This document shows, piece after piece, positions 5,776-17,400 of a stretch of 34,809 nucleotides of DNA. This stretch comes from Chitinispirillum alkaliphilum (GTDB taxonomy: Bacteria; Fibrobacterota; Chitinivibrionia; Chitinivibrionales; Chitinispirillaceae). The position numbers and the translations under genes are program-made. The notes beneath the pieces are model-generated. The model did no database searches. It had not been told where the DNA came from and saw only the letters and a list, made by a program, of their open reading frames with translations. Each line of letters begins with the position of its first letter. Positions within the stretch are counted from its first letter, which is position 1. The stretch is taken from contig LDWW01000034.1 in NCBI GenBank assembly GCA_001045525.1, positions 1 to 34,809 of the forward strand, read 5' to 3'.

Positions 5776-8685
5776 TTAAGGTGTAAATTGCCAGGTTGAT
5801 TCTTCTGCTGTTGACATCAGATCTGCTTGATAGTATTCCGGCTCAAAATCAGATCCCTGGGTACTGTCAAGCCTGCTTTTGATTCGCTCTGCCCTGATAG
5901 TGACCGGGATATCTCTAATGAGTTTGCTATTAACATCTGCAACAACCCAATGGACAGAGGCCTCTTTACCCGGATCATTAAACAGCCTGTCTGTTTTTAA
6001 ACCAACATAATACTTAGCAGGGTGAACCAGTGCAGTCGCGTCAGATGAAATCCTCTGTCCATTGAAATCGAGCATTGTTGCACTGAAATTAAGATTGACC
6101 GGTCTGAAACCGGGAAACCCGGAAAGTTTTGCTTTAACAGTGTGCATGCCGGACACATCAGAAACACCAGAAAATTCTTCCCGCACATTTGATTGTATCC
6201 GGTTAGAACAACTGTCCCTGTCCCAAAAAGGCAAGATCTCACCGAACCTGTACTGATTCAAATTGGAAGGCCTGAAAAATGCATTTTCTGTTCTGAGAAT
6301 CCAGTTTACTTCACTGCCGGCCATGGAACCACCTGCATAGTACTTACCTGTCATAGTTGCACTCAGCTCTTCTTCTGCAAAGTGAGGACCTGCGCTTAGC
6401 TCTGTGTGTGCCTCAAACTCCGGAGTTCTGAACTCCTGGATACTGAATCTATGGGTATGAGAGTGCTCTCCAATTTCCATCACGATTCGTGCCTGCCCAA
6501 GATTACATTCTGAAGGTATCGGGAAACTGAGATCAAAGCCACCACTCGGTGACAGGAGTGCTTTCCCGGAAGCAATCTCATTATCTCTTGGGTCGTTAAC
6601 ACTGAAGCTTAGTGTTGAATCACTATCAAGATACTCCAAATCTCCCCCAACCTGCTGTGCTATTTTGCGCACCCATCCTTTTACATAAACAGTGTCCTCC
6701 GGTCGGTAAATACCCCTGACATCAAGAACATGGAACAGTGCCTCATCCTCAGTTGATTGTCGTCCAACTTTCATAGGTAATAAAGCACGGTCATCCTTTT
6801 TCTTTACAACAATGTGTCCGGTAGCCGAATCGGGTAAACTGACAACAGCCATTCCATGGTCATCCGTTACCCCTTTATTTAAACCGGCAAATACCTCAAG
6901 ACCAGAAAGTGGGTTACCTTCATCGAGTGATGTTGCCATAACATAGAGGAACTCCTGATCAGTCCAGGCATCTACTCCGATGTTGGTGGCCTGCAGCCAG
7001 GCAATTCTCTTCGGCAAATCTGAATGCGGTTCAATACCCTGCATGAACTCCACTGGTGTTGCAAACACGAACAGGTGCCCTGTGCCCTGCGGAAGATAGT
7101 CTGAAAGGTCAATGCTCGAATCTATTGTTTCATTAAGTTCACCTGTTATGCGTATAGTATCGTCAATTACAACATCACCAGGCACCCTAGCCATCCATTC
7201 ATCTTTTCTCAAATCTATACTACTGTAAAATGGCCAGTGTTCCGGCTGCATGCGCCATACTCTCATTGCGACTTTTCTATAATTGACAGTACTAATACTA
7301 ACAGTGGGTGGGGCAATCGGATCTACAATCTGTATTCCTGAGGTTACCACAAAACGTGGTGCCAGATTTCCAACATCTACTGTAAAGAGATTGTCTCCGG
7401 TCAGATTCTGACCAAACTCATCCATTATCTCTCTTGAAAATTCAACCGTATATTCTGTATTGGGCTGGGTATTACCACCTATTATTATTGAACGTGCAGA
7501 GAATATTGAGGGCCTTATTGATAAGCTCTCGATTTCAGGTGTAATCTTTACCATTGAGGGATCAAAGTGCACAGTATCAATTAGATTGTTGGTGTCAAAA
7601 GACCAATTATGCCGTGGCGTCCGTCTTCCCTCCGGAAAACGTTCTATCACAAGGGGTTCATACGTTCTGAAGGAAAACGACTGAGTTCGATCTGTTGGAA
7701 TCGGCCCCTCAAGTGAACCCGCACCACTTTTCAGTCTGACTACAATAGTGCTTGAAAGGGGCAGGTTCTGTTCGGGAATGAGAAGAACCCAATAGTTTTC
7801 TCCGGCTTTATCAGCCATGGAGGAGATGGTATATTTATATTCATCTGAAAGCTCTCCAATTTCTCCCGGGCGAAAATCTAAAAGCGTATCGTTTGCCTCA
7901 ATTTCTATTTTTTCGGCTATGCTTTGAGGATCTATTGGTTGATCAAAGGCGATAAAGACCGGTACATCAGCTCTTTTATTGTGCCCCACTGGATACCGGC
8001 CTGTCATTCTCAAAGGCGAAGTAGAGAAGTTAAAATTCCGCTGCCCACCTATCTTTTTACCGCATGTCGAAGAGAGGTTTTCATCTACAGTCAATGTATA
8101 GTGAGTAGCCTGGGGAAGGTTTTTTGCATAGGGCTCGAATATAATTGTACTTGTTCCCACCCATCTCCATGCCCCTTCAGGTTGTGGATAAAGAGAAACT
8201 GGCAGATGATCAGTGATATTATCTATTGATGTTATCTCTACCACAGGGGCACTGAATGTAACGCTTACATGTGAAACCAGATGTCTAACACGGCCTTGAG
8301 GCACTACTCTCAGAACGGTTAAGGAGTCGTTCTCAGTGCCCCTGATTTCGTTTATCTCCGGAGGAGTTAAATCCTTCTCGGATGGGAATTCACTCTTTAT
8401 GACTTCACCGGTGCGGGGAATGGGTTCGGTTTTTCTGCGAACAGAAAAGGTCTCGGTCTCCGGTTCCGGCATCGGTTGAAACAGTACAGAGTGTGTTTTC
8501 ATTTCAGAATCGCTCAACTCAACTATTTCCCGGTCTGCCTGAACAGAGCTTTTATACTCCGTTTCAATCTCATGGACTTCTATAATTAAAGAAGAGGTGT
8601 CTGAACTATAGGCTGTAGCGGTAAAAAGTAACTGCACAGTAAAAAAAGTCAATATACTTGCAACAAACATCCGTATCAAATGCAT
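5776..8685 (-). CDS. Alpha-2-macroglobulin family protein, N-terminal part
   Basis: This 969-aa half starts with a Sec signal peptide (basic start, hydrophobic 'FVASILTFFTVQLLF', cleavage near ATAYSS) and has no lipobox Cys, so it is exported but probably not a lipoprotein. A family hallmark is 'RGIYRPEDTVYVKGWVRK', the MG2-type motif, followed by 'TGKYYAGGSMAGSEVNWILR'. AGAGGA lies about eight bases before the ATG. The frame stops at TAA 5776-5778 in the middle of a domain, immediately after 'STWQFTP'; family proteins normally continue there with a 'G-[LY]-[WY]' strand, as the downstream codons do. A truncated product would lack the bait and toroid domains. No penicillin-binding protein PbpC gene, a frequent neighbour in Proteobacteria, is present. 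Confidence 0.87.
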   Translation of the reverse strand: MHLIRMFVASILTFFTVQLLFTATAYSSDTSSLIIEVHEIETEYKSSVQADREIVELSDSEMKTHSVLFQPMPEPETETFSVRRKTEPIPRTGEVIKSEFPSEKDLTPPEINEIRGTENDSLTVLRVVPQGRVRHLVSHVSVTFSAPVVEITSIDNITDHLPVSLYPQPEGAWRWVGTSTIIFEPYAKNLPQATHYTLTVDENLSSTCGKKIGGQRNFNFSTSPLRMTGRYPVGHNKRADVPVFIAFDQPIDPQSIAEKIEIEANDTLLDFRPGEIGELSDEYKYTISSMADKAGENYWVLLIPEQNLPLSSTIVVRLKSGAGSLEGPIPTDRTQSFSFRTYEPLVIERFPEGRRTPRHNWSFDTNNLIDTVHFDPSMVKITPEIESLSIRPSIFSARSIIIGGNTQPNTEYTVEFSREIMDEFGQNLTGDNLFTVDVGNLAPRFVVTSGIQIVDPIAPPTVSISTVNYRKVAMRVWRMQPEHWPFYSSIDLRKDEWMARVPGDVVIDDTIRITGELNETIDSSIDLSDYLPQGTGHLFVFATPVEFMQGIEPHSDLPKRIAWLQATNIGVDAWTDQEFLYVMATSLDEGNPLSGLEVFAGLNKGVTDDHGMAVVSLPDSATGHIVVKKKDDRALLPMKVGRQSTEDEALFHVLDVRGIYRPEDTVYVKGWVRKIAQQVGGDLEYLDSDSTLSFSVNDPRDNEIASGKALLSPSGGFDLSFPIPSECNLGQARIVMEIGEHSHTHRFSIQEFRTPEFEAHTELSAGPHFAEEELSATMTGKYYAGGSMAGSEVNWILRTENAFFRPSNLNQYRFGEILPFWDRDSCSNRIQSNVREEFSGVSDVSGMHTVKAKLSGFPGFRPVNLNFSATMLDFNGQRISSDATALVHPAKYYVGLKTDRLFNDPGKEASVHWVVADVNSKLIRDIPVTIRAERIKSRLDSTQGSDFEPEYYQADLMSTAEESTWQFTP

Positions 8686-8764: not shown

Positions 8765-8901
8765 AGCGCTCCGGAAGGGAATTCTCGGCAGCAAGGTTCC
8801 GGTCTACTAATTCCGCTTCTTCAGCACTTAGCAATCGTAATTTGCAGCAGCAATACTCTCAGGAATTAATCTTTTTTTTCTTTAGCCCTGAAGGGGGCGT
8901 G
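8765..8901. repeat. 137-bp direct repeat, left copy
   Basis: The stretch begins AGCGCTCC and runs through 'GGGAATTCTCGGCAGCAAGG' to 'CTTTAGCCCTGAAGGGG'. It recurs at 9756-9894 in the same orientation with only scattered differences. The two copies bracket the 21-bp array. They contain no open frame and are gene-free. The gap before this repeat (8686-8764) holds only the upstream region of the macroglobulin gene. Confidence 0.8.
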
Positions 8902-9030
8902 ATATTACAGCCCTGGGTCGAGTGAGCGTGTGGACCTGGAGCCCTGAAGGGGCGAGATACTCTGAGGTGGATTTGCCGTAATATAAAGAGAGTGGGCAGG
9001 TGAGCTGAAGAGATTTATTAACAAAATTCT
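8902..9030. repeat. REP-like short repeat sequences left of the array
   Basis: No gene is visible. A GCCCTGAAGGGGCG motif at 8941-8954, able to form a small GCCC/GGGC hairpin, repeats the one at the end of the flanking direct repeats (8885-8899 and 9877-9890). 'GGATTTGCCGTAAT' also occurs twice, here and near 9670. These look like members of a dispersed extragenic palindromic family. Confidence 0.45.
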
Positions 9031-9583
9031 ACGCTGACACTGCATATTTGGGCGCTGGCCTTTACAATTATATGCACTGGCACTGGTCGGTTAGGGCGCT
9101 GGATGTACAAAATTCGACGCTGGCACTGCATATTTGGGCGCTGGCCTTACAATTATATGCGCTGGCACTGGTCGGTCAGGGCGCTGGCCTAACAATTATG
9201 TGCGCTGGCATTGGTCGGTCTGGGCGCTGGATGTGCAAAATTTGGCGCTGGCCTTACAATTATATGCGCTGGCACTGGTCGGTCAGAGCGCTGAATGTGC
9301 AAAATTCGACGCTGGCACTGCATATTTGGGCGCTGGCACTGGTCGGTCAGGGCGCTGGATGTACAAATTCGGCGCTGGCACTGCAAATTTAGGCGCTGGC
9401 CTTACAATTATTTGCGCTGGCACTGGTCGGTCTGGGCGCTGGATGTACAAAATTCGACGCTGGCACTGCATATTCTGGCGCTGGCCTTATAATTTTATGC
9501 GCTGGCACTGGTCAGTCTGGGCGCTGGATGTAAAAAATTCGGCGCTGGACCTGCATATTTTGGCGCTGGCCTTACAATTATAT
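9031..9583. repeat. Tandem array of 26 units of 20-22 bp with an 85-bp higher-order period
   Basis: Every unit begins with GCGCTGG (or a one-base variant such as ACGCTGG) followed by 13-15 variable bases. Units fall into four classes by what follows: A (CCTTACAATTATAT), B (CACTGGTCGGTCAGG), C (ATGTACAAAATTCG) and D (CACTGCATATTTGG). Their order is DABC DAB ABC ABCD BCD ABCD ABCD A. Class B is 22 bp long and the others are normally 21, so one ABCD cycle is 85 bp. Because 85 is not a multiple of three, the reading frame rotates each cycle, and the open frames inside it encode no constant peptide. The array is gene-free. A spacing of 21 bp equals two turns of B-DNA. Confidence 0.9.
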
Positions 9584-9755: not shown

Positions 9756-9894
9756 AGCGCTCCAAAAGGGAATTCTCGGCAGCAAGGTTCAGGTCTACTA
9801 ATTCCGCGTCTTCAGCACTTCGCATTCGTAATTTGTAGCAGCAATACTCTCAGGAATTAATCTTTTTTTTTCTTTAGCCCTGAAGGGGCGTGAG
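9756..9894. repeat. 137-bp direct repeat, right copy
   Basis: This is the partner of 8765-8901, in the same orientation, with near-identical sequence from AGCGCTCC to 'TTTAGCCCTGAAGGGGCGTG'. From here to the SHOCT gene (9895-10138) I see no gene except the upstream region of that gene. Confidence 0.8.
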
Positions 9895-11290: not shown

Positions 11291-11687
11291 AAAACAGAAC
11301 ATCATAAGAAGATAACCTTCAGGGACGAGTATATCACATTGTTAGAAAAGTTTGAAATCAAAAATGCAGTTTTTTTGAATAATGTTTCCCCTACAGGGAA
11401 CACAAAACATCTTATTAACCATTATCAACAATAATGTAAGCGCTACACGCTTAGCTTAACACGGCTTTATACAATTCATCCGACAGTATCTTTTTTTATT
11501 GTAAAATCCTTTCGAAAGAGGAGTTTGAGGTGAGGAAAAAAGATTTGCTGTAGTGAAGTGTGCTTTGAGACATCGATTTACTATGGCTAGTATTTGCGCC
11601 TCCTCTGATGACCCTAAAACAACTAAATCCGCTAAAGCCTGTAGGGCTTTAATAATTGTAGTAGTAGATATCCCATGATTCCATCCC
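11291..11687 (+). mobile_element. IS200/IS605-like remnant (copy 2)
   Basis: The order is: a transposase 3' remnant (11291-11361, matching 14090-14155), right-end sequence (11366-about 11509, hairpin TAAGCG-CTACA-CGCTTA at 11437-11453), a copy of the SHOCT gene tail (11510-11556), and left-end sequence (11557-11687). The left-end hairpin here is AAAGCC-TGTAG-GGCTTT (11634-11650). Relative to AAGGCC/GGCCTT in the other copies, both arms changed in a matching way, which supports a functional hairpin. The copy runs straight into a cusA fragment at 11688. Confidence 0.7.
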
Positions 11688-11798
11688 TCCAAAAGCGGGT
11701 ATCGCCATGGGGATCATGATATCGCCTCTTCCGGTGGAGGTAGGATAGGCAGCAGAGCCAGTATGGTCGTGGCAGAAGTCATAAGTCCGGGCCTTACT
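11688..11798 (-). pseudogene. cusA 3'-region fragment
   Basis: About 111 bp match 14621-14735 inside the intact cusA gene, with a few substitutions and 4 bp of deletion. On the minus strand it still encodes 'GLMTSATTILALLPIL' and 'MIPMAIPAFGG', the segment near the last transmembrane helices of the pump. It has no start and no remaining frame, so it cannot be functional. It joins the IS200-like left end on one side and the first unit of the 21-bp array on the other (junction at CCTTACT). Confidence 0.85.
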
Positions 11799-12260
11799 GC
11801 GCGAAAAACCGCACTCACTGCAGGCAAATTGCCCCCCACTGCATCAAAAGTGATACCCACTGCACCAATTTCCCTTGTCACTGCACCAAATATCGCACCC
11901 ACTGCAGGTAAATTGCCCCCCCACTGCATCAAAAGTGGCACCCACTGCACCAATTTTCCTTGTCACTGCGCGAAATATCGCACCCACTGCAGGTAAATTG
12001 ACCCCCCACTGCATCAAAAGTGACACCCACTGCACCAATTTTCCTTGTCACTGCACGAAATATCGCACCCACTGCAGGTAAATTGACCCTCCACTGCATC
12101 AAAAGTGATACCCACTGCACCAATTTTCCTTGACACTGCGCGAAAAATCGCACCCACTGCAGGTAAATTGACCCTCCACTGCACTAAAAGTGATACCCAC
12201 TGCACCAATTTTCCTTGTCAATGCACCCAAAGTGGTACCCACTGCAACGAATTCCCTTGA
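11795..12260. repeat. Tandem array of 22 units of 21-22 bp with an 84-85 bp higher-order period
   Basis: Each unit starts CACTGC(A/G) followed by about 14 bases. Four classes cycle in fixed order: CACTGCAGG-TAAATTG (usually 22 bp), CACTGCATC-AAAAGTG, CACTGCACC-AATTTTCC, and CACTGC(A/G)CG-AAATATCG. The first and last units are the most diverged. The sequence is unrelated to the array at 9031-9583, but the design is the same: a 7-bp anchor, 21-bp spacing, a four-unit period, and one unit longer by a base. Several frames are open on both strands only because stops are absent from the units. I see no gene start or ribosome-binding site, and the 85-bp period shifts frame each cycle. Confidence 0.9.
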
Positions 12261-13727: not shown

Positions 13728-14192
13728 ATGAAACCAGGTGTTTATACACAGTTGTATGTTCAGATTGTTTTTGCGGTAAAAAACAGGCAGTGTTTTTTAC
13801 GAAACAAAGAGCGCAATGAAGAAATTTTCAGGTATATCAGCGGAACTGTCAGTGCTCTTAAAAATAAATCAATTATCGTTAATGGTGCTGAGGATCATGT
13901 TCACATATTCTTAGGTTTACATCATACGGTAAGTATCTCAGAGTTAGCTGGGACAATCAAAAAAAGTTCATCATCATACATAAACGACAGAGGGTGGTTT
14001 TATGGGAAATTTTCCTGGCAGAATGGATATGGCGCGTTTACCTATAGCCGCTCTCATTTAGAAAGAGTGTATAGGTACATTCAAAACCAGGGGGAACATC
14101 ATAAAAAGATAACCTTCAGGGACGAGTATATCACATTATTAGAAAAGTTTGAAATCGAATATGATGAAAAGTATTTGTTTACTTTTTTCTGA
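13728..14192 (+). CDS. tnpA: IS200/IS605-family TnpA (Y1 HUH transposase)
   Basis: The 154-aa single-domain transposase carries the HUH motif H57-V-H59 in 'EDHVHIFLG' and the presumed nucleophile Tyr117 in 'RVYRYIQNQGEHH', followed by the family-typical 'FRDEYITLLEKFEIEYDEKYL'. It would cut and join single-stranded DNA at hairpin-marked ends. The length is full and all motifs are intact, so it may be active. GGAGGGG lies upstream of the ATG. A 3' fragment of the same gene survives at 11291-11361. No TnpB/IscB partner gene accompanies it, so it is IS200-like. Confidence 0.93.
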   Translation: MKPGVYTQLYVQIVFAVKNRQCFLRNKERNEEIFRYISGTVSALKNKSIIVNGAEDHVHIFLGLHHTVSISELAGTIKKSSSSYINDRGWFYGKFSWQNGYGAFTYSRSHLERVYRYIQNQGEHHKKITFRDEYITLLEKFEIEYDEKYLFTFF

Positions 14193-14494: not shown

Positions 14495-17400
14495 TCAGTC
14501 AACGGTATTCGTATCCACTTCAACTTCCTTCATTTTCATCTCCTTCACTACCTCCCTTTCCCTCAGCCAGCTGTACATAACCGGCGACAGGAATATGGTC
14601 GCAATAGCCATGAACATTCCTCCAAAGGCGGGTATTGCCATGGGTATCATGATATCACTCCCCCTTCCGGTGGAGGTAAGGATAGGCAGCAGAGCCAGTA
14701 TGGTAGTGGCAGAAGTCATGAGTGCGGGCCTTACTCTTTTTGCCGCTCCTTCCAAGACACGTTTCCGTACCTCCTCTATGCACCCTGCCTTGCTTTCTGA
14801 AAACTGCTGGTCCAGATAGGTACACATCACCACACCATCATCGGTGGCAATTCCAAACAAGGCCAGAAATCCCACCCAGATTGCAACACTCAGATTAATG
14901 GTTTGCATACTGAAGAGCTGGCGGACATTGGTACCCAGAAATGAGAAATCCATAAACCAAGGCTGTCCCCACAACCAGATGAGAATAAAGCCTCCGGACC
15001 AGGCAATAATAATTCCAAGGAATACCAGAAACGTTGTGGAAACACGCTTGAACTGCAGATAAAGAATCAAAAAGATAAGAGTCAGGGCAAGCGGCAGCAC
15101 CACCATAAGAGTTCTTTCCGAACGCACCTGGTTTTCATAACTTCCGGCAAAGTGATACGAGACACCTGCTGGAATTTCTAAAGTCCCGTCATCGACTTTA
15201 CTCTGAAGATAATCACTGGCAGCATTTACCACTCCCACCTCTGCATGGCCGGGCCTTCTGTCAAAGAGTACATAACCTGTAAGAAAGGTATCTTCTCCCC
15301 TTATCATATCCGGTCCCCGGCGGTAAACAAATTGCCCCAACTGTCCAAGAGGAATCTGTCCGCCTACAGGTGAAGACACCAGTATCCTTTCCATCGATTC
15401 GGGATCCCCGCGCAGCTCCCTTGGATAACGCACTCTCACACCATACCGTTCTCTTCCCTCTATAGTGGATGTAATAGTGCGGCCCCCGACTGCTATTTCA
15501 ATCACTTCCTGAACCTCGGCTATGGAAAGTCCATGTCTGGCAATTGCCTCTCTGTCGATTTCAAATTCCAGATATGGTTTACCGATAATTCTGTCTGCCA
15601 GCACTGCAGCAGGCTGAACTGATGGAACCTCTTTGAGAAGGGTTTCTATCTGGGCTGCGGTCTTTTCTATAGACTCCAGATCCGGCCCGTTTATCTTTAC
15701 CCCCATGGGTGCCCGCATTCCACTCTGAAGCATGACAACCCGCGCAGCAATAGGCTGAAGAAACGGTGCCCCTGTAACACCGGGAAGCGAAGCAGCCTGT
15801 GAAATAGCATCCCAGATATCATCCATGGTCTCTATTTCGGGACGCCATTGTCTGTAGGGCCTACCACGGGAATGTTCTATCAGATCCCCGTTTTCATCCC
15901 GCAGAAATTCTCCCTGTCTTCTGTCATATCTGAAATTCACTCTTCTTCCCGACTCATCGGTTTTGTACTCGGGTTTAATGTTTATCACTGTTTCAAACAT
16001 GGACATTGGAGCTGGATCGAGCGGACTCTCTGCTCTTCCTGCCTTACCCACCACAGACTCAACTTCGGGAATCTGACGGATTGCCACGTTCTGAATGCTC
16101 ATTATGTCAACAGCAGCTCCCTGTGAACCATGTGCCATAATGGTGGGCATGTAAAGAAATGATCCCTCATCCAGTGGCGGCATAAACTCTTTACCCAAAC
16201 CTGGCAGAGCATGAGACAGTGCCACAACAGGAGATGTCTGCTTTACAAAGCCGGGCAGAAAAAAGAACACTCTGGAAAATCCCAGCCATATGGATAAACC
16301 GGTAAGCAGAATAAGAAAAACCGGGATAAGAAAAGCGATTTTCTTTTTCAGCAGACGACTAAGGATACTGACATACTTTCTCTCCAGCAAACGGAAAAAA
16401 GAGAGGATACCACCGGCTGCAATCGCCACAAAGAGAAGGTTTATGAAAGTCGATCTCTGAGCACCAAGTGGAAGCCACTCAGAGGTAAGCAGTAAACCCA
16501 CAATGATTACAAAGAGCGCATTGACAATCCGAGGGACCCATTTCAGTACCTTCTTGGAAGCGAATTCTTCCAGCAGCATTTTGATACCGAATGTAATAAC
16601 GATAAAGCCTGCCCACCAGGCAAAAGCGGCTGAAACATACACACCTGTAAGTGCCAGAATTGAAGCTATGATCACTTTCAGTTTTACCGAAGAGATCGGC
16701 TTTCTGTTTTTGAACATAATGTGTGCCACAGCCGGCAGAATGGTCAGGGCCACTATAATTGAAGCAATCAGGGCAAATGTTTTGGTAAAAGCCAGAGGTC
16801 TGAAAAGTTTTCCTTCAGCAGCTACCATTGTGAATACTGGCAGAAAACTTATAACCGTAGTACTGACAGCTGTCAATATGGCTCCACCGACTTCAGATGC
16901 TGCCCTGTAAATAACATCGAGTGTTTTCTCCCCCTTTTTTGCCTTTTCCAAATGCTTGAGCATGTTTTCTGTTAAGATAATACCCATGTCCACTATGGTA
17001 CCGATGGAAATGGCTATACCGGAGAGGGAGACGATATTGGCATCTATACCGAAATATCTCATTCCGATAAAACTCATCAGTACAGCAATCGGAAGCATAC
17101 CGGATATCAACATCGAACTTCCAAGGTGATTAACCATTACCACAATAACCAGAATGGTGATCAGTATCTGGAGATAGATTGCTTCATTGAGGGTGCCAAG
17201 AGTCTCATTGATCAACTCTGTTCTGTCGTAAAAAGGAACTATAGTCACCCTCGATTCTGTGCCGTCCTCCAGCGTTTTGGTTGGAAGCCCTGCGGAGACG
17301 ATCGCAATCTGATCTTTGACATTATTGATCACCTGCAAGGGGTTTTCGCCATAGCGGGCAACCACAACTCCTCCCACAGCCTCTACTCCCTCTTTATCGA

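Follow-up and report, generated by a model that had tools for sequence, protein, structure and literature searches.

We describe what is probably a new class of bacterial locus (we put its probability at about 0.6), present in at least two phyla, in which a gene for a helical scaffold protein would have its own array of repeats about two helical turns apart, with the spacing selected, the sequence replaced wholesale and each copy forming a separate protein-DNA pair. The genes of one family are associated with such arrays: a tandem array of 20–22 bp period (21-type array), detected with one TRF criterion within 700 bp downstream of the stop codon, followed 39/68 family genes and 1/136 control ORFs (p 4e-22), the controls being ORFs of at least 200 aa other than the family at the same loci, and the counts being unweighted for the relatedness of paralogs. 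In a second phylum, sampled afterwards, 7/9 family genes had a downstream array by the same criterion (p 1e-9).

Two arrays of one geometry in the window

The window, that is, the whole stretch of 34,809 nucleotides analysed, is contig C34 of a Chitinispirillum alkaliphilum genome (G000, 4.43 Mb, 160 contigs). The features that concern us are the following.

8987..9037, + strand: putative gene-family remnant of 16 codons, REWAGELKRFINKILR then stop, directly upstream of array 1
9032..9583, + strand: array 1, CGCTGG-anchored units in an 85-bp cycle, with copies at G000 C4, C16, C27, C37 and C60
11682..11790, no strand assigned: left flank of array 2, a duplicated cusA-like gene fragment, 88% to 14615-14727
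11795..12260, + strand: array 2, 22 units of 21–22 bp, anchor CACTGC[AG], 85-bp four-unit cycle, best read as an orphan
Homologs of array 2: G000:C6:123326-123775, G000:C55:1-179, G006:C1:81640 and G006:C28:25084

A scripted anchor count found exactly 22 anchors in array 2, from 11795 to 12240, separated by 21 bp (17 times) or 22 bp (4 times), and the units fall into four classes which recur every 84–85 bp. The sequence-only reading had reported CACTGCA-anchored units in an 84–85 bp cycle, with one class longer by a base, and most of this stands: the number, spacing and classes of the units were recovered, the extra base is in the GGTAAATTGACCCCC class, and both anchors and TRF (period 85, 5.3 copies, 91%) gave the cycle, the first cycle being 84 bp. 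Two units depart from the anchor, however, as unit 1 has TACTGCG and unit 21 CAATGCA. Self-identity at lag 85 was 0.84 versus 0.27 in shuffled sequences (maximum 0.34), and 0.51 at lag 21; 20 of the 28 occurrences of CACTGC[AG] in the window lie inside the array. Array 1 has 23 anchors, mostly 21 or 22 bp apart, with a period of 85, and its local score against array 2 was 20, compared to 16.8 ± 2.1 (maximum 23) in a null model keeping the periodicity. The two arrays thus have no sequence likeness above chance, as had been claimed for them together with their common geometry. The repeats were rejected as coding sequence, since periods of 85, 43, 20 and 22 bp disrupt every reading frame, and searches with Rfam and for tRNAs gave no matches.

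Both arrays appear to be separated from an intact gene of the family. The putative remnant directly upstream of array 1 resembles the interior of the array-linked gene, in a tblastn match which is short and weak alone (8987-9025, 13 aa, 69%, E 0.92), and its reading as a remnant is supported by the C27 copy of array 1, which is preceded by a C-terminal remnant of the gene (EKAKYVSDFVRRQRNKAIRS...); array 1 is therefore also read as an orphan, following a short and weak trace of the gene. A 138-bp duplication (94%) flanks array 1 at 8765-8902 and 9756-9893, within palindromic repeats of the AGCCCTGAAGGGGC type, with partial copies at other places in G000 and in G006, a genome of another genus. 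Approximately 980 bp next to array 1 are 97% identical between its copies on C4 and C27, and an IS91-type transposase end lies beside each (L035:10754-11368 and L036:137-751). Neither flank of array 2 contains a cognate gene or gene remnant: the left flank is the duplicated cusA fragment, and the right neighbour is a CDF transporter gene. Further left, fragments at ~11297-11690 are copies (78–91%) of the flanks of an IS200/IS605-type Y1 transposase gene, itself present as a separate IS copy at 13728-14192. By analogy with the C6 and G006:C28 loci, the cognate gene strand of array 2 would be the minus strand (TGCAGTG), and array 2 is best read as an orphan from a locus with two parts, gene and array.

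All relatives of array 1 in G000 have the 85-bp unit, and the homologous arrays in G000 and G006 show that two genera have the array-2 cycle of 85 bp in common. In G006 one anchor of the cycle is missing and plain 21-bp repeats come next, and this genome has further CACTGCA arrays of different sequence, after each of which comes an array built from a second unit. The C55 array is adjoined by a Fibrobacter-type TIGR02147 gene, which suggests Fibrobacterota as the host phylum. The array at G006:C28 directly adjoins the final repeat of a CRISPR-like array (GTCTGAAGGATTCCATGACTAAGAATGGATTAAGAC, L090:1500-9780) with a cas2 gene at 6738-7013. A scan of all genomes and viral contigs for CRCTGS arrays mostly matched short 21-bp repeats of other sequence. 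Across loci the cycle takes forms of 21, 42/43, 63–65 and 85 bp, so that the geometry, far from being confined to the two arrays of the window, is seen at many loci; the four units of 21 bp plus one base that had been singled out do occur, but as one higher-order form of a general rule, the 20–22 bp period.

A gene family upstream of arrays with a 20–22 bp period

The sequences flanking the arrays at C6 and G006:C28 have 747 bp in common at 72% identity, corresponding to a gene for a protein of approximately 280 aa with its 3′ end facing the array, so that each array is located directly downstream of a homologous family gene. This is the linked conserved gene for which a search had been suggested from the sequence. 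A first search for the family, covering 41 genomes, gave 46 matches, most of which were adjoined, according to TRF, by arrays of 21-bp period and many different sequences. A profile of 29 members matched 19/168 genomes of the host phylum and, strongly, 4/296 genomes of the second phylum (that of Treponema record L114). The family was found in 0/289 genomes of the Verrucomicrobiota sample, while the Planctomycetota and Bacteroidota samples gave short or weak matches alone, which were taken as negatives and none of which had an array downstream. No matches to the protein were found in PHROGs, PADLOC, phages, plasmids or viral contigs. The fetched loci contain 87 family genes or fragments, with up to ~15 copies per genome. 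The two orientations are about equally frequent among neighbouring genes, and no partner gene common to the loci was noticed when neighbours were judged by eye.

The arrays downstream of family genes are mostly unrelated in sequence to one another, and contain up to ~39 repeats. Among loci with any array, the 21-type was present in 39/41 family loci and 1/11 control loci, with an array of another period alone at two and ten loci, respectively. The best autocorrelation lags downstream of 64 family genes cluster at 20–22 and 41–44, and lag 21 passed the threshold in 31% of the downstream regions versus 4% of the upstream regions of these genes. Within 440 kb of unselected G000 sequence there was one array of the 21-type, with 2 copies. 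At three G002 loci an array was found upstream of the gene, and about 43% of family genes are without a TRF array, some of these being near-identical copies. Five gene copies in G000 (on C2, C12, C38, C40 and C44) are ~93–95% identical over 1.0–1.6 kb and are located in different surroundings, without a TRF array downstream but with a weak 22-bp periodicity left. A broken family gene in L083 (4392-5472, also 1405-2124) runs into an array of 166-bp period consisting of TTTCGTG/CACGAAA repeats, which are also found nearby.

Arrays are swapped wholesale while the period is kept. For most of the gene, the DNA of the L083 and L372 loci is 90–98% identical, and identity drops to 28% over the final 60 bases of the gene and the sequence that follows. 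The G039 loci L434 and L435 have the gene and a tail element in common with unrelated arrays in between. Arrays were unrelated for L434/L435 and L083/L373, with protein identities of 80% and 81%, and common to L433/L434, L457/L458 and L083/L090, with protein identities of 65%, 67% and 73%. Since proteins that are 80% identical can be followed by unrelated arrays, the spacing persists as the sequence is replaced. The C-terminal tail of the protein was an attractive candidate for a specificity module, as it tracked the array in a few single pairs, but was rejected because the overall test was not significant (p 0.25).

Possible roles of the protein and its array

The protein is confidently predicted to have a helical fold, as two AlphaFold2 models (pLDDT 88.5 and 95.2) are all-helical and combine a coiled coil of long helices with a C-terminal helix. 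The 24 residues that run from a conserved tyrosine to the end of the chain are basic in 40/47 proteins. No fitting Pfam family was found, the IVP family also being without a match, and the 29 members did not match a transposase, recombinase or nuclease family, or Rep (Pfam and NCBIfam); matches to endoribonucleases of the ToxN/CptN/TenpN type and to Y1 were likewise absent from the linked gene. The NCBIfam PQLLE family protein (NF052641) was matched by 13/29 members (best E 3e-12), with the C6 protein scoring 22 bits against a curated cut-off of 80, and may thus be a weak relative; our searches showed neither a function nor an array connected with that name. Fold searches gave no Foldseek E below 0.001, no Z above the helical background and no match to a fold with known DNA binding. 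The S23/IVP (Avd-like) four-helix bundle 2rld was at or near the top of both lists (Z 7.6 and 7.7, rmsd 3.0 and 2.9, 91 residues aligned each), yet within the background of helical proteins.

Between the stop codon and the array, 26/39 family loci have a terminator-like hairpin by a strict rule, and most of the twelve G039 paralogs show the order of stop codon, hairpin and array, the latter often with about seven units of 20–22 bp. Some loci, several with two tandem genes, have inverted arrays with a common anchor, for example TTCCTCAC or TGTTCCAAG. There was no RNA-fold signal on either strand of the arrays, and no array-like operator upstream of family genes. The element TTTAGGGTGNGTAGTG is conserved in G039 (C177, C184, C211, C218 and C226), where it follows four arrays, once doubled, and occurs once on C177; it was absent from seven other genomes searched.

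The hairpin before the array, the inverted arrays within a locus, the missing RNA-fold signal and the two-turn period lead us to favour a role as DNA rather than RNA, and to propose, at about even odds, that the neighbouring protein uses the array as a binding platform. The locus would then consist of a stand-alone gene for an all-helical protein of ~250–280 aa, usually a terminator-like hairpin, and the 20–22 bp period array, on which the protein would bind an anchor of 7–10 bp, always on one face of the helix and possibly via its basic C-terminal helix. The long coiled coils would link adjacent sites into a compact nucleoprotein complex, which might hold or bridge DNA at its own locus and at orphan arrays, although bridging is a guess prompted by the orphan arrays and the modelled coiled coils. 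The helical phase would be maintained by selection, and the sequence would change through slippage, unequal exchange and wholesale replacement. Counting against the platform are the ~43% of family genes without a TRF array, the lack of a significant overall link between C-terminal tail and array, the mixed curvature of the arrays (high in some, very low in others), and the absence of an array-like operator upstream and of a match to a fold with known DNA binding. The sequence-only reading had suggested a common mechanism or protein scaffold which fixes the geometry as the sequence drifts; the many loci and the linked gene support this, and suggest a protein working on evenly spaced DNA sites, while binding, bridging and a benefit to the cell are what we infer.

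Alternatively, the array could be transcribed and its repeat RNA bind or neutralise the protein, as in a type III toxin-antitoxin-like system, which we consider unlikely. Type III systems do have a terminator between gene and repeats, keep repeat length as sequence diverges, and show co-evolution of toxin and antitoxin (PMC5086642), but their repeats precede the toxin gene instead of following it, and measure 34–36 nt in 2.8–5.5 copies (three cases, PMC5086642), compared to 20–22 bp and up to ~39 copies here. The lack of RNA-fold signal on both strands, the inverted arrays within a locus and a predicted coiled-coil protein with no match to an endoribonuclease family also argue against this reading.

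Quite unlikely, in our view, is a mobile-DNA system like REPIN-RAYT, in which the protein spreads arrays and the orphans are non-autonomous progeny. It would account for arrays dispersed without an intact gene (array 1 on six G000 contigs, array 2 in the window, on C55 and on G006 C1) and for close paralogs of the gene in different surroundings, but is at odds with the lack of family matches to mobility enzymes among the 29 members and of any fold match, and, given the IS91-type end next to two array-1 copies (C4 and C27), part of the copying can be put down to ordinary IS elements. Neutral minisatellites, with slippage making 21-bp arrays in any non-coding DNA and the links to gene and geometry incidental, would fit the variable copy number and cycle length (21, 42, 63–65 and 85 bp), and the position of both window arrays as orphans amid IS and palindromic debris; the excess over control ORFs (39/68 versus 1/136), its repetition in the second phylum, and the near-exclusive 21-type at array-bearing family loci (39/41 versus 1/11) make this very unlikely. 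Least probable is a curved-DNA element with two-turn repeats bending in phase, and the protein or nucleoid reading the bend and not the letters, which would explain geometry kept while sequence is replaced. In curvature predicted from wedge values, ~10/28 arrays rank at or above 0.96 against permuted units, but several (L423, L441 and L472) rank at or near zero and the mean rank is 0.67.

Comparison with known systems

We found no description of a system of a gene with a two-turn array in the literature searched, and the family of a gene with a spacing-conserved array, seen in two bacterial phyla, is apparently undescribed. Together with the many loci and the linked gene, this supports the earlier suggestion of an undescribed class of DNA element. 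If our preferred reading of a protein with its own array is correct, such an element is defined by spacing and not by sequence, and is invisible to ordinary homology searches. It raises the questions of how the period of an array survives a change of all its letters, and how protein-DNA specificity follows such changes, while the link to one uncharacterised gene family offers a direct route to asking what the protein does.

Plasmid iterons, such as those of P1 incA and F incC, are direct repeats with a spacing of roughly two helical turns, next to the gene for a Rep protein, and iteron blocks are sometimes located downstream of the rep gene. The repeats described here were likewise found to be spaced by about two helical turns; however, neither a Rep nor a winged-helix match was obtained for the protein, its models are all-helical, and the loci are stand-alone, have no match in the plasmid collection searched and differ in sequence from one another. 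The type III toxin-antitoxin systems ToxIN and AbiQ (PMC5086642) also combine one gene and one tandem array with a terminator in between, and keep the length of a repeat that diverges in sequence, but here a unit of 20–22 bp is repeated downstream of the gene, and there is neither an endoribonuclease family match nor an RNA-fold signal. REPINs, pairs of inverted REPs that fold into hairpins, go together with a transposase (PMC3116915); the REPIN-RAYT system is similar in having a gene with its own family of short repeats and dispersed copies elsewhere in the genome, and differs from the long direct arrays found here next to a gene without a transposase match. Finally, the TAACTGA heptamer repeats are also short intergenic direct repeats in bacteria, but they are copies of one heptamer, most of which immediately precede start codons in the genome studied best (PMC4679880), whereas the arrays described here have units of 20–22 bp and a locus-specific sequence, and follow the stop codons of one gene family.
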